Shown here: piece after piece, positions 15,867-35,589 of the stretch
Layout of the letters: every line of letters starts with the position of its first letter
Position numbering within the stretch: the first letter of the stretch is position 1
Source: Nitrospirota bacterium
Lineage (GTDB): Bacteria; Nitrospirota; Thermodesulfovibrionia; Thermodesulfovibrionales; UBA6898
NCBI GenBank assembly: GCA_021783515.1
Contig: JAJXTV010000032.1
Span: 1 to 40,861, forward strand
Length of the DNA: 40,861 nucleotides
Direction: 5' to 3'
The notes under the pieces: model-generated
Told to the model about the DNA's origin: nothing
Seen by the model: only the letters and a program-made list of their open reading frames with translations
Databases searched by the model: none
Translations under genes and position numbers: made by a program

Positions 15867-15876
15867 GTATTACCTC

Positions 15877-18243: not shown

Positions 18244-18249
18244 CTCCGT

Positions 18250-19512
18250 TTACCTCCTCACCATTTGAATGGCCTTGAGCGCCGTGCCGGTAGCCGTCTG
18301 ACCCGAAGACATCACGTCGGAAGGCTTCTTCACGCATCCCGTGGCCAGTATCTCTGCCGGTACGACAAAGCCGTTGTCGTCGTATTTCGCGTTGCCGGGG
18401 ACCTTCACCTGCGCGGTGGAAGGCTCCATGCCGGTGGCGAGGACGACCATCTCGTGCCGCGACTGGATCTTCTTGCCGGAAAGGGTGTCTTCGACCGTCA
18501 CAATGACGTCCTTCGTGGCGGGGTCCTCTTCGATCTTCGCCACCTTACCCTTGACGAACGAGACGTTTCCGTCGGCCTTCACCTTCTTGTAGAACTTCTC
18601 GTACCTGCCGGGGGTCCTGAGGTCGATATAGTAGATCGTCGCCTTCGACTCGGGGTTGGCCTCCCTGATATAGGTGGTCTGCTTCAGCGAGGCAAGACAG
18701 CATATATAGGAGCAGAAGGCCAGATGGTTCTCGTCCCTCGAACCGGCGCACTGAACGAACGCAATATCGTTGACCGCCTTGCCATCCGACGGTCTGACGA
18801 TCTTGCCGCCCGTGGGGCCGTTGACCGCGGCGAGCCTCTCCATCATCATGTTCGTAATCAGGTTGCCGACCTTCCCGAAAGAAAGGTTCGTCATCTTTGT
18901 TGCGTCATAGGGGTTCCACCCGGTGGCCCAGACAATCGATGCGACCTTGATAGTGAAGGTCTTCGCCTTTTCTTCCAGATCCACCGCGTTGTAGGGGCAT
19001 GCGTCCCTGCACTTTTGGGCAGATGCAGTCCCGATAATCGAGGGATCAATGACGTACCTCTGAGGGAAGGACATTTCATGCGGCAGGTAAGCCGCCTTTC
19101 TCTTGTCCATTCCGAAATTAAAGGTATTGGACACTTCGACATCACACGCCTCGCCGCATTTGCCGCAGCAGGTGCAGTTGCCGTTGACGTGCCGCGGGCT
19201 CTGCTTGAGGGTGACGTCGTAATTGCCGGGGCCGCCCGATATCTTCTCGACCTCGGTAAGCGTGAACCACTTCACGAGCTTGTTCTTCTTTATTCTCTGA
19301 AAGTTGATCTCCAGACCGCAGGTCGGCGGGCAAAGCTTCGGGAAATACTTGTTGAGCTGGGCAACCCTGCCGCCCAGATAGGGGTTCTTTTCGACGATAA
19401 ACACTTCGTAGCCCACCTCGGCAGCCTCAAGCGCCGTAGTGATACCGCTGATTCCTCCCCCGACGACCAGGATCGTTCCTGTCTCGGGAGTGCCGGTCTT
19501 CTCATCCGCCAT
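18250..19512 (-). CDS. qmoA: Quinone-interacting oxidoreductase subunit A (HdrA-like flavoprotein)
   Basis: A 420-residue soluble flavoprotein related to HdrA. The dinucleotide loop VVGGGISGITTALEAA is at residues 16-31, followed by the family's EKNPYLGGRVAQLNKYFPKLCPPTCGLE, and a Cys-rich segment (NCTCCGKCGEAC) sits near residue 105. It lacks the classic pair of ferredoxin motifs that QmoB carries, as is usual for QmoA. The start ATG follows GGAGGAAT. It is the first gene of qmoABC and is separated from aprA by 256 bases that contain strong hairpins, so its level may be set separately from aprBA. Confidence 0.95.
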   Translation of the reverse strand: MADEKTGTPETGTILVVGGGISGITTALEAAEVGYEVFIVEKNPYLGGRVAQLNKYFPKLCPPTCGLEINFQRIKKNKLVKWFTLTEVEKISGGPGNYDVTLKQSPRHVNGNCTCCGKCGEACDVEVSNTFNFGMDKRKAAYLPHEMSFPQRYVIDPSIIGTASAQKCRDACPYNAVDLEEKAKTFTIKVASIVWATGWNPYDATKMTNLSFGKVGNLITNMMMERLAAVNGPTGGKIVRPSDGKAVNDIAFVQCAGSRDENHLAFCSYICCLASLKQTTYIREANPESKATIYYIDLRTPGRYEKFYKKVKADGNVSFVKGKVAKIEEDPATKDVIVTVEDTLSGKKIQSRHEMVVLATGMEPSTAQVKVPGNAKYDDNGFVVPAEILATGCVKKPSDVMSSGQTATGTALKAIQMVRR

Positions 19513-19707
19513 GTTATTCCTCCATGTTGGGTTGTCTTGCCGTACGTTTATTTTGGGGGCTCAGTGTGCGCTAGCCCCGCTCGATCGGTCGGCACCGCCT
19601 GGTCGGGCCACTTGCCCTGAGGCAGTGCGCCGCTTTTCAGTCTGTAGACTGAGCGGAAGAATCCGGCACCCGCTTTCTTCCGCTTAACCCGCAGACGCAT
19701 AATCTGC

Positions 19708-19742
19708 GTGTGCCCAGGAGCCGGGGCCGGCCCTGGGCACAC
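19708..19742. repeat. Strong inverted repeat between aprA and qmoA
   Basis: GTGTGCCCAGG at 19708-19718 pairs perfectly with 19732-19742; the loop itself can form a short GCCGG/CCGGC stem. On the minus strand it begins 27 bases after the aprA stop. There is no U-tract after it, so it looks more like an RNA-stabilising or attenuating hairpin between aprBA and qmoABC than a full terminator. A smaller CAGTCT/AGACTG hairpin lies further towards qmoA. Confidence 0.55.
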
Positions 19743-19768
19743 ACATGAGACAAACAGAGAGATCCGGA

Positions 19769-21733
19769 TCAGTCAGGGATTATCTGGATATAATCCTTCT
19801 TGAATACAGACCATTCCTTCTTCTCAGGATCGAACTTGGAGTTCACGAAGCACTTCCAGTTCTTCTCATCCACGAGGTCGAAGTCTGACCTGTAGTAGAA
19901 GCCGGGGTACCTGGACTCTTCCCTGAAGAGAATATGCCTGAGGTGAGACTCGACGGTGCCGAGCCTGTGGTAGTTCTCCCAGGCCCTGAGCAGCTCGTGG
20001 AGGTCGCCTGCGGCCATCTTCTCGGAGTCTTCCCTGAGCATACCAAGGAGATGGAAGGCCTTGTCGAGCATTGCCTTGCTGGTAACGTAAGAAGTGGCAA
20101 CGCCTGCGCCGTACTCGTCCGTGATCTTCATCAGCCTTCTCTGGAAACCGGCAGGCTTGATGTAGTTCGGGTTGACGTCGGTAGACGTAGACTTCTGATA
20201 GTGCTCCATAAAGGTCTTGACCGGCTTGTAGACGATGTCGGCAAGCTCTTTAGCGGTCTCTTTAAGGGTAGGCTTGAAGGAGCCGTTGTCCCTTATGAAC
20301 CTGACCATGGACTTTGCTACCATTCTGCCTTCGGCATGCGAGCCGGAGGAGAACTTGTGGCCCGATGCTCCTGTGCCGTCACCTGCGGTGAAGAGGCCGT
20401 TGACGGTGGTCATGCCCTTGTAGTTCTTGCCTTTGTACATGACCTTGTAGGATTCGGGGACCCAGTCCTCGTTCGGGCCTGCTACCCAGATGCCGCAGCA
20501 GCCTGAGTGGGATCCGAGGAGATAGGGCTCTGTAGGCATAATCTCGGAGCCGACCTTCTCGGGCTCGGTGTTCGTGCCCGCCCAGAGGCCTGCCTGGCCG
20601 ACGGACATGTCGAGGAAGTCTTCCCATGCCTCTGCGAGGAGGTGCTTCACTTCCTTCGGGGTCATATTTGCGGAGAGAGCTGCCAGTGCAGTAGGTGTAT
20701 CCATGTAGATCGGGCCTCTGCCTTCCCTCATCTCTTTCAGCATGAGGTGGTTTCTCAGGCAAGACGCCGGTACTTTTGCAAGGCCGTAAGGCGGATACGA
20801 CTTAAGCATCTCCGCGTTTGTAGACATGTAGTTTTCGCCAAGGGTGTTGGTCGCCTTTGCCTTAAAGAGAAGGAACCAGGCGCCGACCGGGCCGTAGCCA
20901 TCCTTGAACCTGGCGGGGACGAACCTGTTTTCCATCATCGTCATCTCGGCGCCGACTTCCTGGCACATCGTGTAGGTCGAGCCCGCGTTCCATACAGGAT
21001 ACCAGCATCTGCCCATACCTTCACCGGTAGACCTCGGCCTGAAAACGTTGACCGCGCCGCCGCAGGCAACCATCATCGCGTTGGTCCTGATGACATATAC
21101 TTTGTTCTCCCTGACGCTGAAGCCTACCGCGCCTGCAATCCTGTTGCCCTCGTTTTTGTCGAGGACGAGCTTGACGATAAAGCATCTTTCGATGATGTTC
21201 TCGGAGCCGAGAGCAGCCTTTGCGGCTTCGGCAACGATCCTCTTGTAGGACTCACCGTTGATCATGATCTGCCAGCGGCCGGAGCGGACCGGCTTCGTGC
21301 CGATCTTGAGGATCGGTGCGCCCTGTGCGCCGTCGACGGTCTTGCCGTCTTCGAGCGTCTTCCAGATGGGGAGGCCCCACTCTTCGAAAAGATAGACCGA
21401 CCTGTCAACGTGCCTTCCGCAGTCGAAGATAAGGTCTTCACGAACGATACCCATAAGGTCGTTCCTGATCATCCGGACGTAGTCGTCGGGCGTGTTCTCG
21501 CCGAGGTAGGTATTGATCGCGGAGAGTCCCTGTGCAACTGCGCCGGACCTTTCGAGGGCGGCCTTGTCGCAAAGAAGGATCTTGGTTCCTTCAGGTGCCC
21601 ATTTCTTTATTTCATATGCTGTCCCGCAGGCAGCCATTCCGCCGCCGACGATGAGGATATCGGTATCGAGTTCAACCACAGCAGGGTCCAGTGTTGCCAG
21701 TAATTCTCCGGCTGGCTTATTCGGTAATGCCAT
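19769..21733 (-). CDS. aprA: Adenylylsulfate (APS) reductase alpha subunit
   Basis: A 654-residue FAD enzyme that reduces APS to sulfite and AMP in dissimilatory sulfate reduction (or runs in reverse in sulfur oxidation). The N-terminal FAD loop is VGGGMAACGTAYEI, followed by LERSGAVAQGLSAINTYLGE, a hallmark of the fumarate reductase-like AprA fold. Further conserved blocks are SYKRIVAEAAK, ASCLRNHLMLKEMREGRGPIYM, GSHSGCCGIWV and the second FAD-contact block GDGTGASGHKFSSGSHAEGR. The length agrees with the family (about 620-665). The start ATG is supported by an upstream AGGAGG. aprB lies 33 bases upstream in the same operon. Together with QmoABC this indicates the reductive direction. Confidence 0.97.
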   Translation of the reverse strand: MALPNKPAGELLATLDPAVVELDTDILIVGGGMAACGTAYEIKKWAPEGTKILLCDKAALERSGAVAQGLSAINTYLGENTPDDYVRMIRNDLMGIVREDLIFDCGRHVDRSVYLFEEWGLPIWKTLEDGKTVDGAQGAPILKIGTKPVRSGRWQIMINGESYKRIVAEAAKAALGSENIIERCFIVKLVLDKNEGNRIAGAVGFSVRENKVYVIRTNAMMVACGGAVNVFRPRSTGEGMGRCWYPVWNAGSTYTMCQEVGAEMTMMENRFVPARFKDGYGPVGAWFLLFKAKATNTLGENYMSTNAEMLKSYPPYGLAKVPASCLRNHLMLKEMREGRGPIYMDTPTALAALSANMTPKEVKHLLAEAWEDFLDMSVGQAGLWAGTNTEPEKVGSEIMPTEPYLLGSHSGCCGIWVAGPNEDWVPESYKVMYKGKNYKGMTTVNGLFTAGDGTGASGHKFSSGSHAEGRMVAKSMVRFIRDNGSFKPTLKETAKELADIVYKPVKTFMEHYQKSTSTDVNPNYIKPAGFQRRLMKITDEYGAGVATSYVTSKAMLDKAFHLLGMLREDSEKMAAGDLHELLRAWENYHRLGTVESHLRHILFREESRYPGFYYRSDFDLVDEKNWKCFVNSKFDPEKKEWSVFKKDYIQIIPD

Positions 21734-21766
21734 ATTTATATTCCTCCTGTTTAATGTATTTGTAAA

Positions 21767-22213
21767 TTATTTGCCGTATATGGCAATAGGCTTCGCAAGC
21801 GAAAAATTATCGATTTCTTCGTCCGTCAGCCTTTCGTCATCAAGGTTCTTCCCTTTATGGGCAGCGTTCTTAGGGTCGATCGAGCCTTCGGGGGTGGTCC
21901 TGATCGGGAACTTGAACCTCTGAAGGTTGCCGTTCCTGAACTGGATCGTCCACATGATCGAGTCGGAGCTCATCATCGGCTGGACAACACCGCCGAGGGG
22001 GACGATGTCGGAGTAGGCCCTGACCGCGATCGCGCCCTGGGGGCAGATCTTCACGCAGGAGTAGCACTCCCAGCACTGGTCGGGCTCCTGGTTGTAGGCC
22101 TTCATGTTTTCAACGTTGAGAACCATTAAGTCGCTCGGGCAGATGTACATGCAAGCGGTCTTCTCGCCGCCCTTACATCCGTCGCACTTTGCGGGATCTA
22201 CAAAACTTGGCAT
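21767..22213 (-). CDS. aprB: APS reductase beta subunit (ferredoxin-like)
   Basis: A 148-residue iron-sulfur subunit that carries two 4Fe-4S clusters and passes electrons to the FAD of AprA. The cluster ligands are visible as C10, C13, C21, C25 (with the characteristic long CDGCKGGEKTAC spacing) and C47, C50, C53, C57 (CWECYSCVKICP). The C-terminal tail (about residues 90-148), which wraps around AprA in known structures, is present in full. The start ATG follows AGGAGG. It is transcribed just before aprA. Confidence 0.97.
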   Translation of the reverse strand: MPSFVDPAKCDGCKGGEKTACMYICPSDLMVLNVENMKAYNQEPDQCWECYSCVKICPQGAIAVRAYSDIVPLGGVVQPMMSSDSIMWTIQFRNGNLQRFKFPIRTTPEGSIDPKNAAHKGKNLDDERLTDEEIDNFSLAKPIAIYGK

Positions 22214-22310
22214 ATCTCTAAACCTCCTGTTTGAATTAGTTGTTTAAGCCGTCCTGTTCACTGCCTGCACTTCATTCAATTCGCTTCCTACTTCACCCCC
22301 TCTCGCTTGC

Positions 22311-22361
22311 GTAACGGGTGAGGAGTAATGGGCGGGATGCCTTCCGCCCATTACCCGTTAC
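22311..22361. repeat. Long imperfect hairpin between sat and aprB
   Basis: Nested inverted repeats: GTAACGGG at 22311-22318 pairs with CCCGTTAC at 22354-22361, and TAATGGGCGG at 22326-22335 pairs with CCGCCCATTA at 22344-22353; the bases 22319-22325 form a bulge. The following sequence (CCATAACCGATTACCG) repeats the same vocabulary of GTAA/CGGG units. It resembles dispersed palindromic or microsatellite-like repeats more than a simple terminator. On the minus strand it lies between sat and aprB. Confidence 0.6.
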
Positions 22362-22439
22362 CCATAACCGATTACCGTTCTTTATGCGCCTTCAAATATA
22401 TGTACCTTTATCAAAACTCCCCGGACAAATATCCGTTAT

Positions 22440-23651
22440 TTATTTTTCAAGACTCTGATAATACTTAATCAGGATCTCAGCCACCTCGGGGCGTGAAAAT
22501 TCTTTAGGCGGGGCAATACCCTTACCTAACATTTCACGAACTTTCGTGCCTGACAGCAGAACAAAATCTTCCTTTGTATGATCAGGTGCTTCGCACATCA
22601 TCATGACCTTGTTCAGTTTCTTCGAGTACGCGGTATGGTCCGCCTTGAAGATCTCAATTAGCAGAGCGCCCTTGGGAACTTCTTTATCAAATATGATCTG
22701 CGCATCGAAAGGACCGTAGTGATCACCCACGCCTGCATGGTCGCGGCCGACAATAAAGTGAGTTGCACCCATGTTCTGACGGAATATCGCGTGCAAGACG
22801 CCTTCGCGGGGACCGGCGTACAGCATATCGAACCCGTACCCCGTGACCATCGCGCTGTTTTTCGGGAAGTACAGCTCGACCATTTTGCGGATCGCAGCAT
22901 CACGAACAGGCGCCGGAATATCTCCCTTCTTCAATTTACCGAGCAGCATATGAATCACCAGGCCGTCACATCCTAAACGGTCCATTGCCATGTGGCAAAG
23001 TTCTTCGTGGGCCAGATGCATGGGGTTACGAGTCTGGAAAGCAACAACCTTTTTCCAGCCGCGCTCGGCGATTTCGTTGCGGATTTCAACTGCGGTACGG
23101 AAGGTGTCAGGAAATTCTTCCTGAAAGTATGAGAAGTTCAGGACCTGGATGGGACCGGAAAGACACACCTTACCCTGCGCGTTAAATGCATCGACCCCCG
23201 GATGCGCTTCCTTATGGTTAGGGCGGTAAACGTTTTCAGACATCATCGCCATGTCTTCATCGCTGAATTCTTCGACCGCCTTCACTTCCATAACTGCGAG
23301 GACCGGATTGCCGTCGACATTCGGATCCTTCAGCGCAATGCGGTCACCGGCCTTGATTGAGCCTGCATCTTTCACCAGGTTTAAAATGGGCACCGGCCAG
23401 AACAAACCTGATGTTGTCTTCATGGTTTTCGCGACAGACAGGGCATCGGCTTTGTTCATGTAGCCCGTTAACGGATTAAAGTAACCGCCGCCCAGCATAA
23501 CGGCATTAGCCGCGGTAGCTGAACTCACAACAATAGAAGCCAGACCCGCAGCTTCTTTCTGCAGGGCTTCATTTTTCGCCGAGTCATATACGAATAGCGG
23601 ATTTAGCTCGTCTGAACCATGCGGCTTAATTAATTTTCCTTTTGCTGCCAT
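22440..23651 (-). CDS. sat: Sulfate adenylyltransferase (ATP sulfurylase), dissimilatory
   Basis: A 403-residue homo-oligomeric ATP sulfurylase that makes APS and pyrophosphate from ATP and sulfate. The active-site motif QTRNPMHLAHE starts at about residue 206 and the second nucleotide motif GRDHAGVGD at about 302. There is no APS kinase domain, as expected for the dissimilatory type. The start ATG is preceded by AGGAGGAAG. It is the first gene of the sat-aprBA-qmoABC run, separated from aprB by 226 bases with a hairpin. Its pyrophosphate product is the substrate of HppA encoded downstream. Confidence 0.97.
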   Translation of the reverse strand: MAAKGKLIKPHGSDELNPLFVYDSAKNEALQKEAAGLASIVVSSATAANAVMLGGGYFNPLTGYMNKADALSVAKTMKTTSGLFWPVPILNLVKDAGSIKAGDRIALKDPNVDGNPVLAVMEVKAVEEFSDEDMAMMSENVYRPNHKEAHPGVDAFNAQGKVCLSGPIQVLNFSYFQEEFPDTFRTAVEIRNEIAERGWKKVVAFQTRNPMHLAHEELCHMAMDRLGCDGLVIHMLLGKLKKGDIPAPVRDAAIRKMVELYFPKNSAMVTGYGFDMLYAGPREGVLHAIFRQNMGATHFIVGRDHAGVGDHYGPFDAQIIFDKEVPKGALLIEIFKADHTAYSKKLNKVMMMCEAPDHTKEDFVLLSGTKVREMLGKGIAPPKEFSRPEVAEILIKYYQSLEK

Positions 23652-24709: not shown

Positions 24710-24856
24710 GAAAACGCAGAATAATAAATAAAGGAGTGAAGATTTGTCAAAAAATTGCAATAAATCAAAATTTCTGGGACAATATTACCAGAGTTGGTTG
24801 TCCTGTTTCCAGCCGGCTTTTGCAAATCAAATAGCCCTGGCGGCCCGGAGGAATTC

Positions 24857-26032
24857 ATGTTGAGATGGCTGGAAGACCTTATCCCGGCCAACGAAAAACG
24901 CATTGCGCAACGCATGCGCGTCTATGCAGCGTCGTGCCGCATGCGGCATCATTCCCCCGAAAACGACGTGGGACTGCAGGGCTTTCTGACCTCCGTCTCG
25001 GCGCTTCTGCCGGCTGCGCTTTCCGAGTTCTCCGGCAAGGAGTTCCGGCCTGGTTCGGGACGCGACGAAGATCGCTTTCCTCCTTTTTGTGCCTCCGAGG
25101 CCCGCGCACGCCGGGCTAGGGGCGAATCCCCTGCCGACTTCGTCGACAAGACCAGGCACTGCTTGTCGGGCTATCGTGACATTATAGAAGAGGCCGGGGC
25201 ATCACCGGACGAAAAAAAGGAGGCCGACCGTTTTCTGGAGTGTTTTTTTGACCGCCTGGCATTGGGCTTCTGCCTGGAATGGTTCCGCCTGGCCGAAGAG
25301 CAGGCCGCGGACCTCAAGGGGAAGGAGATGCAGGCCGACAGGCGCCGCGCACGGGAGCAGCTCGCCGGGTTCGCTTCGGGAGTTGCCCACGAGGTACGCA
25401 ATCCGCTCCATGCGCTAATGTCCGTGACCGAGGCCCTCGGCCAGGAGCTGCAGGACAAGCCGGAAGCCGACACCTATCTGTACCATATACGGACCCAGAT
25501 TGACCGCCTGTCTCAGTTGATGAGAGATCTACTTCAGGTCGGCAAAACGGTTGACCCGTCAAAAATACGCCGGGAATCCCTGCGGGAGATATGCCTTGCC
25601 GCGATCAGCACATGGAGGGGCTCGCGGTCGGGAGAGGGGCTCGCGGTTTCCTTCGTGTGTCAGCCGGGAGATGAAGAGGTTGCGGTGCTGACCGACGGAG
25701 TCACTCTGCAGCAGGTACTGTTGAGTCTGCTCGACAACGCCGGACAGCATAGTCCGGCGGGGAGCGAAATAGAAGTCGCCATTTCCGTCCCCCGGGACGA
25801 ATTCGCCGCGGTCCGGGTGACCGACAGAGGGTCCGGGATACCGGAAGAATTCCGGCAGAGGATTTTCGAACCCTTCTTCTCAACCCGCCGGGGCGGGACA
25901 GGGCTCGGCCTCACCATCATCAAGGATTCATTGGAGAGTCAGGGCGGCTCCGTGGCCATATGGAACAATGACCCGCCTCCGGGGGCCACTGCGGAGATAA
26001 CCCTTCCGCGTGCCGAAGGGGGGCCGGAGTGA
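24857..26032 (+). CDS. Soluble sensor histidine kinase (NtrB-like)
   Basis: A 391-residue kinase without membrane segments. The H-box GVAHEVRNPLHALMSVTEAL places the phospho-His at about residue 178; then follow the N-box (LLSLLDNAGQHSP), the G1 box (DRGSGIP), the F-box (FEPFFSTRRGGTGLGL) and G2. The first 160 residues, rich in Arg, Cys and Glu, show no domain I recognise and are presumably the sensory part. The ATG at 24857 with GGAGGAA upstream is preferred over the in-frame TTG at 24794. The stop overlaps the start of the sigma-54 activator (GTGA), so the two are a cognate pair. Stimulus unknown. Confidence 0.9.
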   Translation: MLRWLEDLIPANEKRIAQRMRVYAASCRMRHHSPENDVGLQGFLTSVSALLPAALSEFSGKEFRPGSGRDEDRFPPFCASEARARRARGESPADFVDKTRHCLSGYRDIIEEAGASPDEKKEADRFLECFFDRLALGFCLEWFRLAEEQAADLKGKEMQADRRRAREQLAGFASGVAHEVRNPLHALMSVTEALGQELQDKPEADTYLYHIRTQIDRLSQLMRDLLQVGKTVDPSKIRRESLREICLAAISTWRGSRSGEGLAVSFVCQPGDEEVAVLTDGVTLQQVLLSLLDNAGQHSPAGSEIEVAISVPRDEFAAVRVTDRGSGIPEEFRQRIFEPFFSTRRGGTGLGLTIIKDSLESQGGSVAIWNNDPPPGATAEITLPRAEGGPE

Positions 26033-27351
26033 ACCCGCAGGTCCTTCTGGTAGACGACGAACCCGCAACGCTCTTCGGCTTTTCCCGCTTCATGACAAAG
26101 GCCGGATATGCGGTCACCGAGGCGACAACCCTGGCTGAGGCACGGGAGGCGATCTCCTCCCGGCGTTTCGATGTCGTCATTCTCGATCTCAACCTTCCGG
26201 ACGGCAACGGGATCGACTGGATACCCGACATACGGGAAGGGCATCCTGCCACCGCAGTCGTCGTTATCACCGGCTCCGCCGATATCCCGCTGGCGGTGGA
26301 GGCGATGCGGCGCGGTGCCGACAATTTTCTCACCAAGCCGGTCAGCCTTGTCGATCTCGATATTTTTCTCCGGAAAAGCCTCGAACTCGGCAGTCTTCGG
26401 AGAAAGAACCTGGCGCACCAATGGCTTTCTAAAGGCTTTGAAGCCTATTTCGGCGAAAGTAACGCGATCGCCAAGGTGATGGAGTTCGCCGCGATCGCGA
26501 GCCAGAACGATTCCGCCATCCTCCTTCAGGGGGAAACCGGGACGGGGAAGGGAGTTCTGGCGAGGTGGATCTATCATCATTCCCCACGCAAGTCCGGCCT
26601 CTTCGTCGAGATCAACTGCTCCGGACTGAAGGGAGAGCTTCTTGCCAGCGAGCTCTTCGGCCACGTCAAGGGGGCCTTTACGTCGGCCGTGCAGGACAAA
26701 CCCGGGCTGATCGAGGTGGCTGACGGCGGGACGCTTTTTCTGGATGAGATCGGGGACATGGACCTTGCGGTGCAGGCCCAGTTCCTCAAGGTGATCGAAG
26801 AGAAGAGCTTCAGAAGGGTGGGCGACGTCAGGGTCCGTCGAAGCAATTTCCGTCTCATCGCCGCAACCAACAAAGACCTCGCCGCCGAAACCGCTGGGGG
26901 CCTCTTCCGCAGCGACCTCTTCTTCCGCATCAACGTCTTCCCGATCCTGCTGCCCCCTCTGAGGGAAAGGGTAGAGGATCTCGAAGGACTGGTCCCGCGC
27001 ATCCTTGCTTCTCTCCGGGCTTCCTTTCCTGAGATCTCTCCCGAGGTGATGAACCTGCTGAAATCATACCCCTGGCCCGGCAACGTAAGGGAGCTGCGAA
27101 ATGTACTCGAGAGAGCTTTGTTAATTTCCCAGGGGCTTCCGCTGAAACCGGAGCATTTCCCGGGGATCGGCGCGGCACCCAAGGCGCCGGCCGCAGGCGC
27201 CGCTGCGACACCGGGTCTTGCCTCTGTCGAAGAGGCGTATATCAGGTCCGTTGTCTCAAAAGCAGGGGGTGATATAAGGAAAGCCTCAGCAGAGCTGAAC
27301 ATGTCCAGGGCAACCCTCTACCGCAGACTCAAAAAGATGCGGACCGATTGA
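26029..27351 (+). CDS. NtrC-family sigma-54-dependent response regulator
   Basis: A 440-residue activator with receiver, AAA+ and Fis-type helix-turn-helix domains. The receiver has D9, D10 and the phospho-acceptor D53 (LDLNLPDGNG). The AAA+ domain has Walker A GETGTGKG (168-175), the sigma-54 contact loop as GAFTSA (215-220, instead of the usual GAFTGA), Walker B GGTLFLDEIGDMD, and the Arg-finger region. The C-terminus ends GDIRKASAELNMSRATLYRRLKK, a typical DNA-binding helix-turn-helix. It starts with GTG overlapping the kinase stop. Immediately downstream lie two matched palindromes and a sigma-54 promoter, which are its probable targets. Confidence 0.95.
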   Translation: MNPQVLLVDDEPATLFGFSRFMTKAGYAVTEATTLAEAREAISSRRFDVVILDLNLPDGNGIDWIPDIREGHPATAVVVITGSADIPLAVEAMRRGADNFLTKPVSLVDLDIFLRKSLELGSLRRKNLAHQWLSKGFEAYFGESNAIAKVMEFAAIASQNDSAILLQGETGTGKGVLARWIYHHSPRKSGLFVEINCSGLKGELLASELFGHVKGAFTSAVQDKPGLIEVADGGTLFLDEIGDMDLAVQAQFLKVIEEKSFRRVGDVRVRRSNFRLIAATNKDLAAETAGGLFRSDLFFRINVFPILLPPLRERVEDLEGLVPRILASLRASFPEISPEVMNLLKSYPWPGNVRELRNVLERALLISQGLPLKPEHFPGIGAAPKAPAAGAAATPGLASVEEAYIRSVVSKAGGDIRKASAELNMSRATLYRRLKKMRTD

Positions 27352-27355
27352 GCCC

Positions 27356-27374
27356 GAAGGCTTTGTAAGCCTTC
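27356..27374 (+). terminator. Short hairpin after the sigma-54 activator gene
   Basis: GAAGGCTT at 27356-27363 pairs with AAGCCTTC at 27367-27374 around TGT, four bases after the activator's stop codon. The tail is only pyrimidine-rich (CCTCT), so termination would be weak; it separates the regulator pair from the chemotaxis promoter. Confidence 0.4.
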
Positions 27375-27398: not shown

Positions 27399-27435
27399 GT
27401 CTCATTTGTGAGACTTCCGGTCTCAGGTCTGAGAC
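27399..27435 (+). promoter_or_regulatory. Pair of palindromic upstream activator sites (GTCTCA-N4-TGAGAC)
   Basis: Two perfect copies of GTCTCA-N4-TGAGAC lie at 27399-27414 and 27420-27435. Their centres are 21 bp apart, two turns of the helix, so two dimers would bind on the same face. They sit 63-99 bases upstream of the -24 element. This is the classical layout of enhancer sites for an NtrC-type activator, and the gene for such a protein ends 48 bases earlier. That the encoded activator binds here is inference. Confidence 0.8.
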
Positions 27436-27497
27436 TGTTTCCTTGCCCGTCAGGCACGATCTTCTTTCGGTACAATGCCTTTCTGCTCCCATCCCGC

Positions 27498-27512
27498 TGG
27501 CACAGCTATTGC
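27498..27512 (+). promoter_or_regulatory. Sigma-54 promoter (-24/-12) of the chemotaxis operon
   Basis: TGGCAC at 27498-27503 and TTGC at 27509-27512 with five bases between, followed by T: an exact match to the consensus TGGCAC-N5-TTGC. Transcription is expected near 27524, about 33 bases before the first start codon of the operon. Confidence 0.85.
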
Positions 27513-27556
27513 TATTACCTGTAGTGTCGCAAATATCGATAGCCCTTGAGAGCGAA

Positions 27557-27781
27557 ATGGAAAGCAGAGAGAGCATCAGTCGGAACTGCCCTTACCGTCC
27601 AAAGAATACGAAAGGGCATTGCGCTGCCGAGACCTCGCAGGCGTATCTGCCCAGCGCATTTCAGATCCAGGAATATTGCGAGAACCCGGACTATATGAAA
27701 TGTCCTTTTTTCCAGTCTGCGCGCAAGGGCGGCGGAGAGGCATCAGCAACCCTGTCAGCGCCCCTGCGTCATGGAGGATGA
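27557..27781 (+). CDS. Small cysteine-containing protein of unknown function (74 aa)
   Basis: The first frame after the sigma-54 promoter. Starting at ATG 27557 (GAGAG upstream) it gives 74 residues with four Cys spread as CPYRP...GHC...EYC...CPFF. The block with PSAFQIQEYCENPDYMKCPFF looks like a conserved small zinc- or cluster-binding motif: I recall similar short hypothetical proteins with a YC...Y..CP ending in other anaerobes, but cannot name a family. The last 20 residues are low-complexity. It ends 79 bases before the CheY start, so it should be co-expressed with the chemotaxis genes. Confidence 0.55.
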   Translation: MESRESISRNCPYRPKNTKGHCAAETSQAYLPSAFQIQEYCENPDYMKCPFFQSARKGGGEASATLSAPLRHGG

Positions 27782-27860
27782 CATGCTTACGGTAAACATC
27801 GAACATAAGAGAGGTACCCAGATTCGGACAGATGGAGGAAATGCAAGGGGGGAGGGATCA

Positions 27861-28226
27861 ATGGCAAAGACTATCTTATTGGTAGACGATGCGGCCGTCG
27901 TCAGACACGTCGTATCGCTTACCCTCAGAAAAGCGGGGTATGAGGTGATCGAGGCTGTCAACGGAAACGACGCCCTGCAGAAGCTCGCCCAAAACAAGGT
28001 GGGCATGGTGATCACCGATCTTAACATGCCGGAGATGGACGGCATCGAGTTGATACGGCATCTTCGCGAAAAGGCGGTCTACCGCTTTCTGCCGGTCGTC
28101 ATGCTGACGACGGTATCTCAGGAAGAGAGGAAGAAAGAAGGGAAACAGGCGGGCGCAAGCGGCTGGATTTATAAACCCTTTCAGTCCAAAGACCTTCTTG
28201 ATACCGTCCGGCGGTTTGTTGCATGA
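27861..28226 (+). CDS. cheY: CheY-type single-domain response regulator
   Basis: A 121-residue receiver. The acidic pair is D9-D10, the phosphorylation site D53 (VITDLNMPEMDG), then the Thr of MLTTVS and the Lys of YKPF, all in the CheY order. ATG 27861 is chosen because it lies just before the canonical KTILLVDD strand and follows GGGAGGG; the frame is open back to 27771 but the extra residues are not receiver sequence. It is close in sequence to the second CheY at 29854 (both have the EERKKEG/EEKKREG loop and GWI-KPF), suggesting duplication within the cluster. Likely to act at the motor or as a phosphate sink. Confidence 0.9.
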   Translation: MAKTILLVDDAAVVRHVVSLTLRKAGYEVIEAVNGNDALQKLAQNKVGMVITDLNMPEMDGIELIRHLREKAVYRFLPVVMLTTVSQEERKKEGKQAGASGWIYKPFQSKDLLDTVRRFVA

Positions 28227-28277
28227 GAACCATAATGGTTGCCGGAAGGAACATCCAAACGGAGTGAAAGCGCAACA

Positions 28278-28652
28278 ATGGACCAAAAGAAAGTGCTGTT
28301 AGTTGATGATGAGACCGCCTTTCTGCTGTCTGCCAGAAAGGTGCTGGAGGGGCCTGACCTGTCGATCGATACTGTTGACAACTTTGAAGAAGCGATAGAA
28401 ATGATCGAGCACAGCCACTACGATATCGTCGTCACCGACATACGGCTTACCGACGTGACCAGCAGGGAGGGGATGGACATTCTCCGCTACGTCACCGAGC
28501 GCCACCCTGGGACAAAGGTGATTCTCCTGACCGGCTACGGCTCCCCGGAGATCATGGAAAAGGCGTATGCCATGGGCGCGGCCAACTATCTCGAAAAACC
28601 GCTCTCCGGAAGCATCCTCAAGAGCATTCTGAAGAACGCGAGGTGCGGATGA
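28278..28652 (+). CDS. Receiver-domain response regulator (stand-alone)
   Basis: A 124-residue receiver with D10-D11, phospho-acceptor D54 (VVTDIRLTDVTSREGMD), the Thr of LLTGYG and the Lys of LEKPL. The loop after the Asp has an insertion (TDVTSREG) and the second half resembles the receivers of NtrC/AtoC regulators rather than CheY, so it is unlikely to bind the flagellar switch. It has no output domain. The stop overlaps the next start (ATGA), showing translational coupling with the DxxxQ protein. Its partner kinase could be CheA or the upstream kinase. Confidence 0.88.
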   Translation: MDQKKVLLVDDETAFLLSARKVLEGPDLSIDTVDNFEEAIEMIEHSHYDIVVTDIRLTDVTSREGMDILRYVTERHPGTKVILLTGYGSPEIMEKAYAMGAANYLEKPLSGSILKSILKNARCG

Positions 28653-29452
28653 CCGGAAAATTTTACCCCGGCCGCCAGGGGCCGGGATCGATAGCGTCCT
28701 GCCGGTCATCAACAGGAACCAGGGCCTGGCCCGACATCGCGAGGAGCGCCCGGCAGGCGCTTCATTGCTGCGTCCGCGGACTCAGCATGCTCTCTTCCTC
28801 CACAGAGGACGAATTTATCATGATTGCCGAGACCCTTGAGGATGTGAGCCGGCAGACACGGAAGGCGCCGGCGTCGGCCGGGGGCGTTGAACTGAACGTC
28901 GAAGATGTCGTGACCCTCATCCAGTTTCATGACATTACCCGTCAGCAGTTCGAAAGATCCTCCGCGGCCTGCCGCGCCATGATCAAAAAACTCGCCGCCG
29001 CGGACAGCGGAAGACCGGAGACCGCACCGGGTCAAAAAAGCGGCGGCGCTTCAGCCGAAGAGCTTGCGCGTTTCTGCGTATGCCAGGCGAAGGCAATCGA
29101 AGAAACGAGGGAGACGTTCGTTGCCTCGGTCACCCGCCTCATCCGGAAGATCGGACTGATTGCCGATGAGATCCGCAAGACTGCCGGCAACGGGGCGGAT
29201 GCCGGGATCGAAACCGCCGTTCACGGCATTTGTGTTCATAAGTTCGTAAACATCGTCGCCGAAGAAGTGCTCTCGGCCTTGAACGATCTGAGGGTGGAAA
29301 TGCGACCGTTCGTCCCCGAAGAAATGTGGGAGAAAATAACGGTCTCCTCAGGCCGGACGGAGACGGCGACCGGGGGAGAGACTTCCGGTATCGGGACGGA
29401 CATTTCTTCGGAGACAGGGAGTTCCCTCGGAGACAACGTGCAGCTCTTCTGA
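28649..29452 (+). CDS. Chemotaxis-cluster protein with CheZ-like DxxxQ motif
   Basis: A 267-residue, mainly helical soluble protein. The start ATG at 28649 overlaps the preceding stop and follows GAGGTGCGG. Its clearest feature is the helix VVTLIQFHDITRQQFERS with D95 and Q99. CheZ phosphatases use an Asp and a Gln spaced exactly this way (DFQDLTGQ) to dephosphorylate CheY. A second helical region (ETFVASVTRLIRKIGLIADEI and FVNIVAEEVLSALNDLRVEM) may form the long helical hairpin expected for such a protein. The C-terminal 35 residues are Gly/Ser/Thr-rich. No CheC, CheX or classical CheZ is seen in the cluster. I assign only a candidate phosphatase role. Confidence 0.6.
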   Translation: MTGKFYPGRQGPGSIASCRSSTGTRAWPDIARSARQALHCCVRGLSMLSSSTEDEFIMIAETLEDVSRQTRKAPASAGGVELNVEDVVTLIQFHDITRQQFERSSAACRAMIKKLAAADSGRPETAPGQKSGGASAEELARFCVCQAKAIEETRETFVASVTRLIRKIGLIADEIRKTAGNGADAGIETAVHGICVHKFVNIVAEEVLSALNDLRVEMRPFVPEEMWEKITVSSGRTETATGGETSGIGTDISSETGSSLGDNVQLF

Positions 29453-29512
29453 AGAGACCCGGCCCTCGGCCGGAACATGCAGGCCATCGAGCAGAGAAAA
29501 AGGAGGACCACC

Positions 29513-29857
29513 ATGGAGGAACTGAAGATTGCCGCTTCAGGGCCGGAAGAAATCACGATGAACGGCAGCCTGACCGTGGCAAATGCGTCGGCTATCGTAA
29601 AAGCAATCCGCGAAGCCCTCGCCGTAACAGACCGTCTCACGGTGACGGTAGGGGAAGGCTCGGAGGTGGATGTTTCGTTCTTTCAGATCCTCTGCTCGGC
29701 GCACCGTACCGCTGCAAAGCTGAATAAATGCCTGCGTTTGGACACCGGAAAGGCCCGCAGATTCTTCGGCGAAGCCCGGGCGTCCGGCTATGTGAGGACC
29801 AAGGGCTGCGCCCGCGACCGCGACGGCAGCTGCCTCTGGGCAAGGGAGGGGAAATGA
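29513..29857 (+). CDS. STAS-domain protein
   Basis: A 114-residue STAS (anti-anti-sigma-like) protein, starting at ATG 29513 with AGGAGG upstream. The strand-helix pattern ITMNGSLTVANASAIVKAIREAL and TVGEGSEVDVSFFQILCSAHRTAA matches STAS proteins found in chemotaxis clusters of other anaerobes. The usual phosphorylated Ser of the DSSG loop corresponds to DVSFFQ here, so regulation by Ser phosphorylation is uncertain. The last 20 residues, with two Cys (GCARDRDGSC), are unusual. Its stop overlaps the next CheY start (ATGA). Confidence 0.82.
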   Translation: MEELKIAASGPEEITMNGSLTVANASAIVKAIREALAVTDRLTVTVGEGSEVDVSFFQILCSAHRTAAKLNKCLRLDTGKARRFFGEARASGYVRTKGCARDRDGSCLWAREGK

Positions 29858-30219
29858 AGAGGACGATCATGACCGTCGACGACTCTGCCAGCGTGCGGCT
29901 GATGGTGAAGTTCTCACTCGCCGAACTGGGGTTCGAGATCGTCGAGGCGGTAGACGGCGTCGATGCGCTCCGGAAGATCGAAAAGAAACCGGTCCACATG
30001 CTGATCACCGATATCAACATGCCCGAACTCGACGGCATCAGTCTGGTGAGAAAGGTCCGGGAAATCCCGGCCTGCAAATTTATCCCGATCATTATGCTCA
30101 CCACCGAATCACAGGAAGAAAAAAAGAGGGAAGGCAGGAAGGCGGGGGCTACCGGCTGGATCGTGAAGCCTTTCAGGCCGGACCAGCTCGTGTCGGTCGT
30201 GAAGAAGGTGCTGGGATGA
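29854..30219 (+). CDS. cheY: CheY-type response regulator (second copy)
   Basis: A 121-residue receiver with D9-D10, D53 (LITDINMPELDG), the TT of MLTTES and the Lys of VKPF. It starts at ATG 29854 overlapping the STAS stop, and its own stop overlaps the CheA start (ATGA), so it is translationally coupled on both sides. Being directly before cheA it is the more likely main phospho-acceptor of CheA. It is a paralogue of the CheY at 27861. Confidence 0.92.
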   Translation: MKRTIMTVDDSASVRLMVKFSLAELGFEIVEAVDGVDALRKIEKKPVHMLITDINMPELDGISLVRKVREIPACKFIPIIMLTTESQEEKKREGRKAGATGWIVKPFRPDQLVSVVKKVLG

Positions 30220-32336
30220 GCGAAGAATTCGAGAAGCTGGTCGAGACCTTCAGGGAGGAGACGTACGAGCTGCTGTCGGAGCTGGAATCCTCCCTTTTCG
30301 AGCTCGAAAAAGACCCCCACAACAGTGGTGAGGCGGTATCCTCCATCTTCCGCGCGTTTCACTCGATCAAGGGGGCCGGAGGAATGTTCGGCTTCGACGA
30401 GGTCTCGCGCTTCACCCATGAGATCGAAACCGTCTATGACCTGGTGCGCGCCGGAAAGGTCCTGGCGGACAAATCGCTTGTGGACCTCAGTTTCGCCGCC
30501 AGCGACCTGATCCGCGAGATGATCACCTCTCCGAAGGAAGTAGCGGAACAGAAAAAGAAGGCGGACGAGCTGCTCGTCTCTCTGAGGCAGCTCTTCCCGG
30601 AGATTACCGAGGCGAAAAAAGCAAAGAAGAGCGCCCTCCCGAAAGAAGGGGAGCCGGTCATGCTCGCCGCGAAACTGAAGGCCTACCGGATACGCTTCAG
30701 GCCGTCGGCCGACATCTTCGCCACCGGGACGAACCCCTCGCTTTTGCTGAGGGAGCTCTGCGGTCTCGGCCAATGCAGCGTAATCGCCCACAGCGATGCG
30801 ATACCGGACCTCGACGAGATCGATCCGGAGCTCTGCTATACGAGCTGGGACGTCATCCTGACAACCGGGCGGGACCTCGACGCAATCCGGGACATCTTCA
30901 TCTTCGTCGAGGACACGTCCGAGCTGAGCATCGAGATGATCGATGACGGCGAAAGCGCCGTCGACTCCGCCGATTACAAGAAGCTGGGCGAGATCCTTGT
31001 CGAAAAACGGGACATCACGCCGGAAGACCTCCAGCGGGTCCTCGGCGGCAGAAAGCGGCTCGGTGAGATGCTGATCGATGAAGGTTTGGTGCAGCCCGAG
31101 AGCATCCAGGCGGCCCTGCTCGAACAGGAGCACGTCCGGCTGATCCGGGAAGGCCGGCTGAAGAAAGAGGTGATCTCGAACATCAGGGTCTCTTCCGAAA
31201 AGCTGGACAAGCTGGTCAACCTCGTCGGCGAACTCGTCACCGTCCAGGCGCGCCTGAGCAGAAACGCCTTGTATACCGGCGATTCCGAACTCGCCTCGAT
31301 CGCGGAAGAGGTCGAGCGCCTCACCGCAGAGCTCCGCGACAATACCATGAATATCCGCATGCTACCGATCGGCACCACCTTCAGCAGGTTCAGGCGCCTC
31401 GTCAGGGACCTGTCGAAGGACCTCGGCAAAGAAGTCGAGATGGTGACCGAAGGCGGCGATACCGAGCTCGACAAGACGGTCATCGAAAGGCTGGGAGACC
31501 CCCTCGTCCATCTCATCAGAAACTGCATCGATCACGGCATCGAGCCGCCGGAAGAGAGAATATCCGCCGGGAAGCCCCGGAAAGGGACCGTCCGGCTTTC
31601 GGCGACCCATTCAGGGGCGAACGTGCTGATCGAGATAGAGGATGACGGGGCCGGGCTCGACGCCGGCGCGATACGGGCAAAAGCGGTCAAGAAAGGTCTC
31701 GTTGATCCCGATGCGGAGCTGGGAGGCGGCGAGATACTCTCGCTTATACTTGCGCCGGGTTTTTCGACTACCGAAAACGTCACGAACATCTCCGGCAGGG
31801 GGGTCGGCCTCGATGTGGTGAAGAGGGCGGCCGATTCCCTCAGGGGCGAGATCTCAATCCGCAGCGAACAGGGGAAGGGGACCTCGATCACCCTGAGCCT
31901 GCCGCTGACGCTCGCCATCATCGAAGGGCTTCTCATCCGGATAGAGGATGAGCATTTCGTCCTTCCGCTTTCTGCCGTGGAGGAATGCGTCGAGCTGATC
32001 GGCGGCGACCGCCACGGAAGGCATATAGCAAATGTACGGGGCCATATCATTCCCTACATCAGGCTGAGGGAACAGTTTACGATCTCCGGGACCCCGCCTG
32101 AGATCGAGCAGATCGTGATCGTCAAGAACGAGACCACGAAGGTCGGGTTCGTCGTGGACACCGTCATCGGGGAGAACCAGACGGTGATCAAGACCCTTGG
32201 CAGGGTCTATAAAGGCGTGGAAGGAATATCGGGCGCTACGATCCTCGGCGACGGAACGGTCGCCCTGATCCTGGATGTCTCGAAACTGATACGAATCGTG
32301 GAAGAAGGGGAGGTGAGCGAGCAGGCGTCACGGTGA
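30216..32336 (+). CDS. cheA: Chemotaxis histidine kinase CheA
   Basis: A 706-residue kinase. The HPt domain carries H49 in FRAFHSIKGAGGMFGF. A P2-like region (about 150-245, YRIRFRPSADIFATGTNPSLLL) follows. Residues about 254-313 form an inserted segment with two copies of a LGEILVEKRDITPEDLQ / LGEMLIDEGLVQPESIQ pattern, resembling the N-terminal domain of PilB/GspE ATPases. Then come the dimerisation helices (NLVGELVTVQARLSR), the ATPase (N-box HLIRNCIDHGIE, GRGVGLDVVKRAADSL) and a CheW-like C-terminal domain. It is coupled to cheY by a 4-base overlap. Confidence 0.96.
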   Translation: MSEEFEKLVETFREETYELLSELESSLFELEKDPHNSGEAVSSIFRAFHSIKGAGGMFGFDEVSRFTHEIETVYDLVRAGKVLADKSLVDLSFAASDLIREMITSPKEVAEQKKKADELLVSLRQLFPEITEAKKAKKSALPKEGEPVMLAAKLKAYRIRFRPSADIFATGTNPSLLLRELCGLGQCSVIAHSDAIPDLDEIDPELCYTSWDVILTTGRDLDAIRDIFIFVEDTSELSIEMIDDGESAVDSADYKKLGEILVEKRDITPEDLQRVLGGRKRLGEMLIDEGLVQPESIQAALLEQEHVRLIREGRLKKEVISNIRVSSEKLDKLVNLVGELVTVQARLSRNALYTGDSELASIAEEVERLTAELRDNTMNIRMLPIGTTFSRFRRLVRDLSKDLGKEVEMVTEGGDTELDKTVIERLGDPLVHLIRNCIDHGIEPPEERISAGKPRKGTVRLSATHSGANVLIEIEDDGAGLDAGAIRAKAVKKGLVDPDAELGGGEILSLILAPGFSTTENVTNISGRGVGLDVVKRAADSLRGEISIRSEQGKGTSITLSLPLTLAIIEGLLIRIEDEHFVLPLSAVEECVELIGGDRHGRHIANVRGHIIPYIRLREQFTISGTPPEIEQIVIVKNETTKVGFVVDTVIGENQTVIKTLGRVYKGVEGISGATILGDGTVALILDVSKLIRIVEEGEVSEQASR

Positions 32337-32394
32337 AATCCGGAATCGGTCAGGCCGGTTCTTTCGTGTAAACATTTCTTAAGGAGGAAGGGTT

Positions 32395-34092
32395 ATGCTC
32401 GGCAACATGAAAATAGGATCCCGGCTTCTTCTGGGGTTCGGTGTGGTAGTGGCAATAGCGCTGGCGATCGGCGCCGCAGGCTATTGGGGTATCGGTTCTA
32501 TTAACACCCAGATTCTCAGTATTCTGCACGGAGACGCTGCCATCGCGATGACGTCAATGGACACTAATGTGGGCGTTCTTCAGATGCGCCGCTCGGAAAA
32601 GGATTTCTTCCTGAATATAGGAGCGCCCGAGAAACAGGCCGACTATATGAATAAGTGGGAGACTGCCAATAAAGACACCCATGAGGCGGTAGATAAACTC
32701 GACAAGATCCTCTATGTCCAGGACGAAAAAGACATTTTGAAGGATATGAAATCGGAGATGGCAAATTATGAAACCGGCTTCAAGAAAGTCTCCGGCATGG
32801 TGACGGCCGGCACGCTGAAGACCCCTCAGGATGCGAACAAGGCGATAGGCGAATACAAGGACGCGATCCATAAAATGGAGGCCGCAGCCGAGAACATCGA
32901 ACTGGCGGCGTCCAAGCGACTCGACGGAGCGGAAAAGACGATGACCGACTTCGCAAAGCGCATCGCCATGGTTCTCATCGTCTTCATCGTGATTGCGATA
33001 GCGATTAGTATCGTGATCAGCCTCTTCATCACGAAGAGCATCACCGCGCCCCTCGCCATCGGCGTCGGGGTCGCGAACAAGCTCGCCGAGGGAGACCTCA
33101 CGCTGACGATCGACGTGAAGAGCAAGGACGAAACGGGGCAGCTGCTCGGCTCGATGAAAAACATGGTCGAGAAGCTCAGGGAGATCGTGGCGGACGTCAA
33201 GACCGCGTCGGACAATGTGGCGTCGGGAAGCCAGCAGATGAGCTCCGGCTCGGAGGAGATGTCCCAGGGCGCCTCCGAGCAGGCCAGTTCGGTCGAGGAA
33301 GTCTCTTCCTCCATGGAGGAGATGGTCTCGAACATCCGCCAGAACGCCGACAACGCCCAGCAGACCGAGAAGATCGCGCAGAAGTCCGCCGGCGACGCGA
33401 AGGAAAGCGGCAAGGCGGTCTCGGAGACGGTGACGGCGATGAAGGACATCGCAGGCAAGATATCGATCATAGAAGAGATCGCGAGGCAGACTAACCTCCT
33501 GGCGCTGAACGCCGCGATCGAGGCGGCCCGGGCGGGAGAGCACGGAAAGGGCTTTGCCGTCGTCGCCTCCGAAGTGAGAAAACTGGCCGAACGGAGCCAG
33601 GCCGCGGCCGCGGAGATCAGCAAGCTTTCGGCGTCGAGCGTACAGGTGGCCGAGATGGCGGGCCAGATGCTCGACAAGCTCGTGCCCGACATCCAGAAGA
33701 CGGCTGAGCTCGTCCAGGAGATAAACGCGGCGAGCGGCGAGCAGAACAGCGGGGCCGAACAGATCAACAAGGCGGTCCAGCAGCTCGACCAGGTGGTGCA
33801 GCAGAACGCCGGAGCAGCGGAAGAGATGTCCTCTACGGCTGAGGAGCTCGCCTCTCAGGCCGAGCATCTGCAGAGCGTAATCGAGTTCTTCAAGGTGGGA
33901 GGCAACGGCCGGAAGCGGTTCGGCGCCGAAAGGGTCTCCTACAGGGGTAAGGTCGCCCATATCGGTCACGAGGGCGCCAAGAGGGCGCAGATGTCGGTAA
34001 AGACCGAGACGACGGGCAAGAAGGCCGGCGTTGCCCTCGAAATGGGCGACGGGGGCCGGGACGCCGAAGACGACGAATTCGAGCGGTTTTAG
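32395..34092 (+). CDS. Methyl-accepting chemotaxis protein
   Basis: A 565-residue transmembrane receptor. TM1 is at about residues 11-33, followed by a periplasmic helical-bundle sensor (about 35-185, with [10 protein letters not shown] as in HBM/4HB sensors), TM2 at about 189-212, HAMP (about 213-265) and the cytoplasmic signalling domain, whose tip [23 protein letters not shown] lies near 360-382. The long acidic and Gly-rich tail ends in DDEFERF, which could serve as a tether for CheR/CheB. The start ATG follows AAGGAGGAAG. It sits 58 bases after cheA in the same operon, so it is the receptor most likely to feed this pathway. Ligand unknown. Confidence 0.95.
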
Positions 34093-34103
34093 GAGGTGAA
34101 GCG

Positions 34104-34628
34104 ATGAGCGGCGTATCGGAGATTACCGAAACAACGCAGTACCTCACCTTCAAGCTCGGCGACGAGGTCTTTGCGATCGAGATATCGAAGGTGAGAGAGG
34201 TGCTCGACTTCACGACGATCACGAAGGTGCCGCGCACCCCTGATTTCATGAGAGGGGTGATCAACCTCCGCGGCAACGTCGTGCCGGTCGTCGACATGAG
34301 GCTGAAATTCGGCATGACGAAGACCGAAAATACGGTCAACACCTGCATCATCATCGTCGAGATATCGCTCGACGGCGATACCACGGTGCTCGGGGCGCTT
34401 GCCGACTCGGTCCAGGAGGTTATCGAACTCGACCCGGAGAAGATCGAGCCGGCGCCGAGGATAGGCACTCGCCTCAGGACCGAATTCATCAAGGGAATGG
34501 GCAGGCGCGACGAGACCTTTATCATCATTCTCGACATCGACAAGGTCTTTTCGGTCGATGAGCTGTCTCTAGTCCGGGACGCGGGCGATCTCCCCGCCCC
34601 CGGCGGCGCGGAACCCTCCGGCGCATAA
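34104..34628 (+). CDS. cheW: Chemotaxis coupling protein CheW
   Basis: A 174-residue adaptor joining receptors to CheA. It shows the CheW pattern YLTFKLGDEVFAIEISKVREVLDF, MRGVINLRGNVVPVVDMRLKFG and the second half with LGALADSVQEVIELDPEKIEPAP. The start ATG is behind AGGAGGTGAAG that overlaps the end of the MCP gene, 11 bases after its stop. Confidence 0.96.
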   Translation: MSGVSEITETTQYLTFKLGDEVFAIEISKVREVLDFTTITKVPRTPDFMRGVINLRGNVVPVVDMRLKFGMTKTENTVNTCIIIVEISLDGDTTVLGALADSVQEVIELDPEKIEPAPRIGTRLRTEFIKGMGRRDETFIIILDIDKVFSVDELSLVRDAGDLPAPGGAEPSGA

Positions 34629-34725
34629 CCGGAGTAAGGTCCGTCCCGGCTTCCTGCCCGCCATTCCCCCGGCCTGGCAGGGAGCCGGAGCCCGGACGCT
34701 TTCGGGAAGAATCGAAAGGCACCAA

Positions 34726-35589
34726 ATGATGAAAACAGGCAACATGATCATGTCGGCGGCCCTGTCGAGGAATGATTTCGAGAGGCTGAGCGCCTTCATC
34801 CGTTCGGAATGCGGGATAAAGATGCCCGAGCAGAAGAGGGTCATGCTCGAGGCGAGGCTCAGGAAGAGACTTCGGGCGCTCGGCATCGAATCCTTCGGGG
34901 AGTACTGCGACTTCCTCTTCAGCCCCGAAGGGCTGCTGCAGGAAAAGGTGCATATGATCGACGTGGTCACCACGAACAAAACCGACTTCTTCCGGGAGCC
35001 GAAGCATTTCGATTACCTTGTCCGGCATGCCATTCCGGAGCTTTCCCGTTTCCGTGGAGCCGGCGCGAGACAGCCTCTTTCGCTCTGGTCGGCCGGATGC
35101 TCCAGCGGCGAGGAGCCCTACACGCTGGCGATGGTGCTTACCGAATATGCCGAGTCGCAACCCGGATTCCGCTTTTCGGTCCTCGCCACCGACATCTCGA
35201 CGAAGGTCCTCGACAAGGCCTTTCGCGGCGTCTACAAGGAAGAGCGGGCCGGACTGATGCCGGAGGCGATGAAGAGGAAATACCTGATGAGGAGCAAAGA
35301 CAGGGACAAGGGGCTGCTGCGGGTGGCGCCGGAACTCAGGTCCTGCGTAAAATTCAGAAGGCTCAATTTCATGAACAACGACTTCGGCATCGACGAGTCC
35401 TTCGATATCATATTCTGCAGAAACGTCATCATTTACTTCGACAGGCCAACGCAGCAGAAGGTCCTTGAGACGATCTGCCGCCACCTGAGACCGGGCGGGT
35501 ATCTCTTCATGGGACATTCCGAAACGCTCAGCAGCCTGAGCATGCCTCTCGTCTCGGTCGGCTCCATGGTATACCGAAGGCCGTCATGA
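34726..35589 (+). CDS. cheR: Chemotaxis protein methyltransferase CheR
   Basis: A 287-residue SAM-dependent enzyme that methylates receptor glutamates. The N-terminal helical domain (ECGIKMPEQKRVMLEARLRKR) is followed by the catalytic domain with TTNKTDFFREPKHF, the SAM loop LWSAGCSSGEEPYTLAMVL and FCRNVIIYFD. The ATG at 34726 has AAGG six bases upstream; an adjacent ATG at 34729 is possible. Its stop overlaps the cheD start (ATGA). No TPR extension is present. Confidence 0.96.
   Translation: MMKTGNMIMSAALSRNDFERLSAFIRSECGIKMPEQKRVMLEARLRKRLRALGIESFGEYCDFLFSPEGLLQEKVHMIDVVTTNKTDFFREPKHFDYLVRHAIPELSRFRGAGARQPLSLWSAGCSSGEEPYTLAMVLTEYAESQPGFRFSVLATDISTKVLDKAFRGVYKEERAGLMPEAMKRKYLMRSKDRDKGLLRVAPELRSCVKFRRLNFMNNDFGIDESFDIIFCRNVIIYFDRPTQQKVLETICRHLRPGGYLFMGHSETLSSLSMPLVSVGSMVYRRPS

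Follow-up and report, generated by a model that had tools for sequence, protein, structure and literature searches.

In NtrC-type systems, the phosphorylated activator binds its sites, forms a ring and remodels the sigma-54 polymerase. In the sigma-54 regulome of Desulfovibrio vulgaris, variants of the GAFTGA loop are common (12 of 37; PMC4641369), and changes of the second glycine of this loop in NorR, serine included, were found to keep or free transcription activation, with serine at this position giving activity without inducer (PMC2941729). Sigma-54 promoters have been predicted before several che clusters of Geobacter, with predicted starts 16–50 nt from the start codon (PMC2577667), and in Myxococcus xanthus phosphorylation of the NtrC-type activator CrdA depends jointly on its kinase, CrdS, and on the Che3 system (PMC3510030).

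The 40861 bp contig of a Nitrospirota bacterium (GenBank accession number JAJXTV010000032.1) was analysed over its whole length, here called the window, and was found to include two palindromes and a promoter that, judged from the sequence, very probably form a local, essentially single-target sigma-54 switch for a che operon (coordinates 27557–37195). The two perfect GTCTCA-N4-TGAGAC palindromes recorded in the preliminary description are exact, and are predicted to be enhancer sites 1 (GTCTCATTTGTGAGAC, spacer TTTG; 27399–27414) and 2 (GTCTCAGGTCTGAGAC, spacer GGTC; 27420–27435), with a centre-to-centre distance of 21 bp. The TGGCAC-N5-TTGC promoter of that description is likewise present without mismatch on the plus strand (TGGCACAGCTATTGC; 27498–27512), with a predicted start near 27524, 33 nt from the start codon at 27557. 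As described, the palindromes lie between the activator gene and the promoter, and all three elements fall within the 205 bp gap separating the activator stop (27351) from the next co-directional open reading frame (ORF). The GG and GC elements are properly spaced near a start codon in a genome that carries rpoN, as expected of a sigma-54 promoter, and TGGCAY-N5-TTGC recurs at the equivalent position in orthologous loci. Site 2 is 70 bp upstream of the promoter TGG, and the site centres, at about −117 and −96 from the predicted start, fit the range of upstream activator sites (roughly 80–150 bp before the start). Perfect dyads of any sequence with 6 bp arms and an N4 spacer occur 17 times in the window. 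This is the sole case of two dyads with the same arms less than 60 bp apart, and no such pair arose in 200 mononucleotide shuffles of the window. The second palindrome also scores as terminator-like (27418–27437, tail TTTCCTTGCC). A separate perfect hairpin sequence, GAAGGCTTTGTAAGCCTTC, is located right after the activator stop codon (27356–27374) and has no T-run.

Upstream, on the same strand, are genes for a soluble-looking sensor histidine kinase with HisKA and HATPase_c domains (24794–26032, starting at 24794 with TTG or at 24857 with ATG), the N-terminal region of which has no Pfam match, and for the activator (26029–27351). The latter combines a receiver, a sigma-54 AAA+ domain (PF00158) and a Fis-type HTH (SRATLYRRLKK), and is assigned to the NtrC-type enhancer-binding proteins by these Pfam matches, its translation and its clade. 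Its L1 loop reads GAFTSA rather than the canonical GAFTGA, the F and T of this loop class being kept. As loop variants are common in Desulfovibrio and the serine variant of NorR is active, GAFTSA is no argument against function. Literature searches found nothing on the loop variant GAFTSA and nothing relevant on a GTCTCA-N4-TGAGAC site. The genome has one rpoN gene and 21 sigma-54 activator genes with strong, long matches, one of which is cut by a contig end.

The run of plus-strand genes from 27557 to 37195, with intergenic gaps of at most 98 bp, is closed by a convergent gene at 37209. It starts with a 74-aa Cys-rich ORF with a CPY...C...C...CPFF pattern and no Pfam match (27557–27781), followed by genes for a CheY-like receiver, RR1 (27864–28226; ORF listed from 27771, conserved part from ~27864), a stand-alone receiver, RR2 (28239–28652), a 269-aa protein, as listed, of unknown family (28643–29452), a STAS-domain protein (29477–29857) and another CheY-like receiver, RR3 (29728–30219, true start probably ~29850), all but the unknown-family protein identified with Pfam. 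CheA (30216–32336) and a methyl-accepting chemoreceptor with 4HB, HAMP and MCPsignal domains (32395–34092) were also identified with Pfam, and domain matches identified CheW (34104–34628), CheR (34726–35589), CheD (35586–36128) and CheB with receiver and methylesterase domains (36125–37195). A single co-directional cluster therefore includes CheA, CheW, MCP, CheR and CheB, as expected of a che operon. A scan of the run for internal sigma-70 promoters gave a near-chance number, none above chance; promoters of other sigma types may still lie inside the run, and the 98 bp gap preceding CheR may have signals of its own.

The preliminary description had named this run a chemotaxis operon; the che genes are indeed co-directional up to 37195, but swimming is doubtful. 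FlhA (PF00771), which was taken as the mark of flagellar chemotaxis and was the one flagellar family tested, had no match in the 98.7% complete genome, in which positive controls were detected. As there is no FlhA match and several PilT-type ATPases (four above the cut-off) are encoded in the genome, the operon is better named chemosensory, and pilus-based movement or another output is probably likelier than swimming. CheW-domain genes form three main clusters in the genome, with one further partial match. The minus strand of the window also includes sulfate-reduction-like genes (14694–23651) for ATP sulfurylase, APS reductase subunits and three Qmo-like proteins, and the host probably reduces sulfate or is related to a bacterium that does. 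A giant ORF of 2897 aa on the same strand (1275–9968) has GH94, glucoamylase-like and glycosyltransferase-like domains and resembles a cyclic beta-glucan synthase.

A scan of the genome for GTCTCA-N4-TGAGAC had been proposed as a means to find a regulon. However, the palindrome is not scattered over the 3.16 Mb genome, as exact matches were found in two places, both in this locus (27399–27435), and a reversed-pattern control gave no match in the whole genome. Six places elsewhere have one mismatch, close to what chance would give for a 12-base pattern. The relaxed form TCTCA-N3/4-TGAGA was found at seven places in the whole genome, two of them at this locus. The relaxed copies elsewhere are inside long open frames, and no good sigma-54 promoter was found within 200 bp of the copies elsewhere, the best candidate being a string with three mismatches next to the C12 site. 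A genome-wide regulon was therefore ruled out and, as the only palindrome pair of the genome is the one found here, a local switch with one target is indicated. The promoter string has eight exact copies in the genome, again about the chance number; it is not special alone, and gains its weight from position and conservation.

Orthologues of the activator were collected in a phylum-wide search, in which relatives with at least ~50% identity were set apart from the rest at 45% or less. A search of genome contigs added Nitrospirota bin746, Pelotalea chapellei and one Desulfuromonadaceae record; bin746 duplicates a match of the phylum search and was counted once among the 26 orthologue rows. These 26 group as one clade, separated from 80 paralogues by a branch with an SH-aLRT of 100. 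In all of them, Ser or Thr replaces the second G (fifth position) of the GAFTGA loop; since 11 scored paralogues share the Ser, this residue characterizes the clade without being confined to it. An orthologous kinase is encoded upstream of the activator in most of the loci. In a Desulfuromonadaceae record, kinase and activator are fused in a 1044-aa ORF (L029, coordinates 4123–7257) with the order PAS-HisKA ... receiver-AAA-HTH and no HATPase match listed.

When up to 400 bp after the activator stop was scanned for the dyad TCTCA-N3/4-TGAGA, allowing one mismatch in 10, a dyad was found downstream of 18 of the 26 orthologues, compared with 0 of 83 paralogues and 0.4 of 26 in shuffled regions. 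The promoter TGGCAYN5TTGCT with at most one mismatch was present in 13 of 26 orthologous loci versus 11 of 83 paralogous ones. When positions are counted from the promoter, most loci have right half-sites TGAGA at about −89 and/or −69 relative to the T of TGG, and 20 of the 22 loci with an identifiable promoter have TGAGA or TGATAA at either or both positions. In the eight loci with both dyads within 400 bp, the second dyad centre is 68.5–72 bp upstream of TGG (70.0 in the window). IHF-like matches with at most one mismatch were detected in 10 of the 22 spacers that separate site 2 from the promoter (2.1 expected from simple shuffles) and may account for the near-fixed distance in the relatives; the spacer in the window has none, its best candidate having three mismatches. 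The closest comparison is the same-genus locus L147 (activator 85% identical), which has GTCTCA-N4-TGAGAC, a second site with one mismatch at a distance of 21 bp, and the promoter, followed by che genes in the same order as in the window. RR1 is 94% identical in L147 and the 269-aa protein has a 50% identical counterpart, whereas the Cys-rich ORF is missing there, its relatives being found at several signalling loci of the family. The earlier view that these elements are the enhancer–promoter unit of the adjoining activator, set before the che operon, is thus strongly supported by the conservation of sites, spacing and promoter beside orthologues and by the copy in L147.

Within 400 bp, eight of the 26 orthologues lack a dyad, and some loci (L163 and L165) have none whatever. 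L149 retains left half-sites only, and L160 has no half-sites. A convincing promoter is absent from L163, L165 and L029, and those in L028, L157, L164 and L166–L169 are imperfect, with 2–3 penalties. In L167–L169, the recognition helix is SQATLYRR instead of SRATLYRR, an Arg-to-Gln change, and the half-sites are TGATAA instead of TGAGA in about the same places. As all three belong to one subclade, this represents one evolutionary event with no independent replication, and the joint change of helix residue and half-site is suggestive of a pairing of activator and site.

Of the 26 loci, 17 encode a stand-alone receiver related to RR2 downstream of the activator, and in most orthologous loci such a relative is the first gene there or nearly so. 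In 14 of 26 loci the activator is followed by che-type genes (at least MCP or CheW), five of these loci having CheA; L148 is counted on a weak match to MCP, and several of the loci are short contigs. With 17 loci against 14, the receiver is the more frequent target, with che genes added repeatedly, and we infer that the receiver was the original target, before che genes. The examined stretch of ten che clusters from the same family (CheA 58–63% identical) that do not have this activator beside them includes no exact dyad, which indicates that the sites accompany the activator and rules out that they are a property of the che operon. The small Cys-rich ORF was also tried as an operon marker, and was discarded as it led to another group of activators that are not orthologues. 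In these family relatives (L015, L016, L019 and L021–L023), the gene for a different NtrC-type activator (37–40% identical) is followed by small Cys-rich ORFs and, in most cases, by a CheY-like gene. GCCACA-N4-TGTGGC palindromes are present in L015, L016 and L019, and several of these loci have a TGGCAY-N5-TTGT-like promoter. Loci of the L015, L016 and L019 type apparently represent a second, parallel enhancer–promoter unit.

In the proposed mechanism, the kinase would phosphorylate the activator, as suggested by the adjacency of their genes, and the activator would bind both palindromes on one helical face, as suggested by their conservation. The AAA+ domains would then assemble into a ring and, by looping across ~70 bp, open the sigma-54 polymerase at 27498–27512, with transcription beginning near 27524 and probably extending over the length of the operon. 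If adjacency is a guide, the upstream kinase would have the che operon expressed on demand. The enhancer sites belong to the activator clade and travel along with it. A dedicated on-switch is very probable because the sites are real, are the only such pair in the genome and recur with nearly the same spacing beside the activator in distant bacteria.

The terminator-like score of the second palindrome and the separate hairpin sequence that follows the activator stop would also suit palindromes that act in the activator transcript, as an intrinsic terminator or RNA hairpin, and not as DNA bound by protein. This is extremely unlikely, as the base sequence of the arms, beyond mere pairing, is kept across the clade, the distance to the promoter is nearly fixed, and second sites often retain one half only, which would ruin a hairpin. 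Adjacency alone is no proof of binding in a genome with 21 long-match activators, and the sites could be bound by a repressor or by another of the ~20 sigma-54 activators. That too is very unlikely, given that the sites are found beside this activator clade and beside none of 83 paralogues, that they co-vary with a recognition-helix residue in one subclade, and that ten che clusters lacking this neighbour include no exact dyad.

By analogy with the joint action of CrdS and Che3 on CrdA, CheA and CheB could also set the phosphorylation of the activator, making the operon both output and regulator of the same protein. Several receivers of the operon could exchange phosphate, and a non-swimming output is needed where no flagellar export gene was found. 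However, many orthologous loci have the activator and no che neighbours, so input from che proteins is no inherent feature of the activator, and such two-way wiring appears rather unlikely.

Taken as a dedicated switch of the che operon, the locus turns a pattern spotted by eye into a testable regulatory unit, each component of which (activator, DNA sites, promoter and target) is named and conserved. The locus is also a clear example from Nitrospirota of one dedicated predicted sigma-54 switch serving a complete che cluster, and the natural pairs of helix and site (Arg with TGAGA, Gln with TGATAA) are material for studies of DNA choice by Fis-type HTH domains. We give even chances to the broader reading that an undescribed NtrC-type clade with a Ser/Thr loop, mostly from Nitrospirota, carries, as a portable unit, a fixed-geometry two-site enhancer with promoter, the ancestral target of which was probably a stand-alone receiver, and which was repeatedly put before chemosensory genes, including in a bacterium apparently without flagella.

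Switches of this type are well known, and this is one further well-supported case. As in D. vulgaris, a kinase–activator pair adjoins a sigma-54 operon, the upstream sites are ~100 nt from the promoter, and many activators there control one or a few local operons; however, the palindrome differs, GAFTSA is missing from the variants listed for that species, and the target here is a complete che cluster (PMC4641369). The che clusters of Geobacter share a predicted upstream sigma-54 promoter, with a distance of 33 nt here falling within their 16–50 nt, but those promoters were predicted without enhancer sites or an assigned activator (PMC2577667). The loop variants of NorR are laboratory mutants of a one-component activator, whereas Ser or Thr is the natural state of the whole clade described here (PMC2941729). 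In the CrdS-CrdA/Che3 system of M. xanthus, an NtrC-type activator and its kinase are also functionally tied to a chemosensory system, but with the che proteins acting on the activator, while the sequence here indicates the reverse, an activator acting on the che operon (PMC3510030); by analogy, wiring of the Che3-CrdSA type could coexist with it at this locus.
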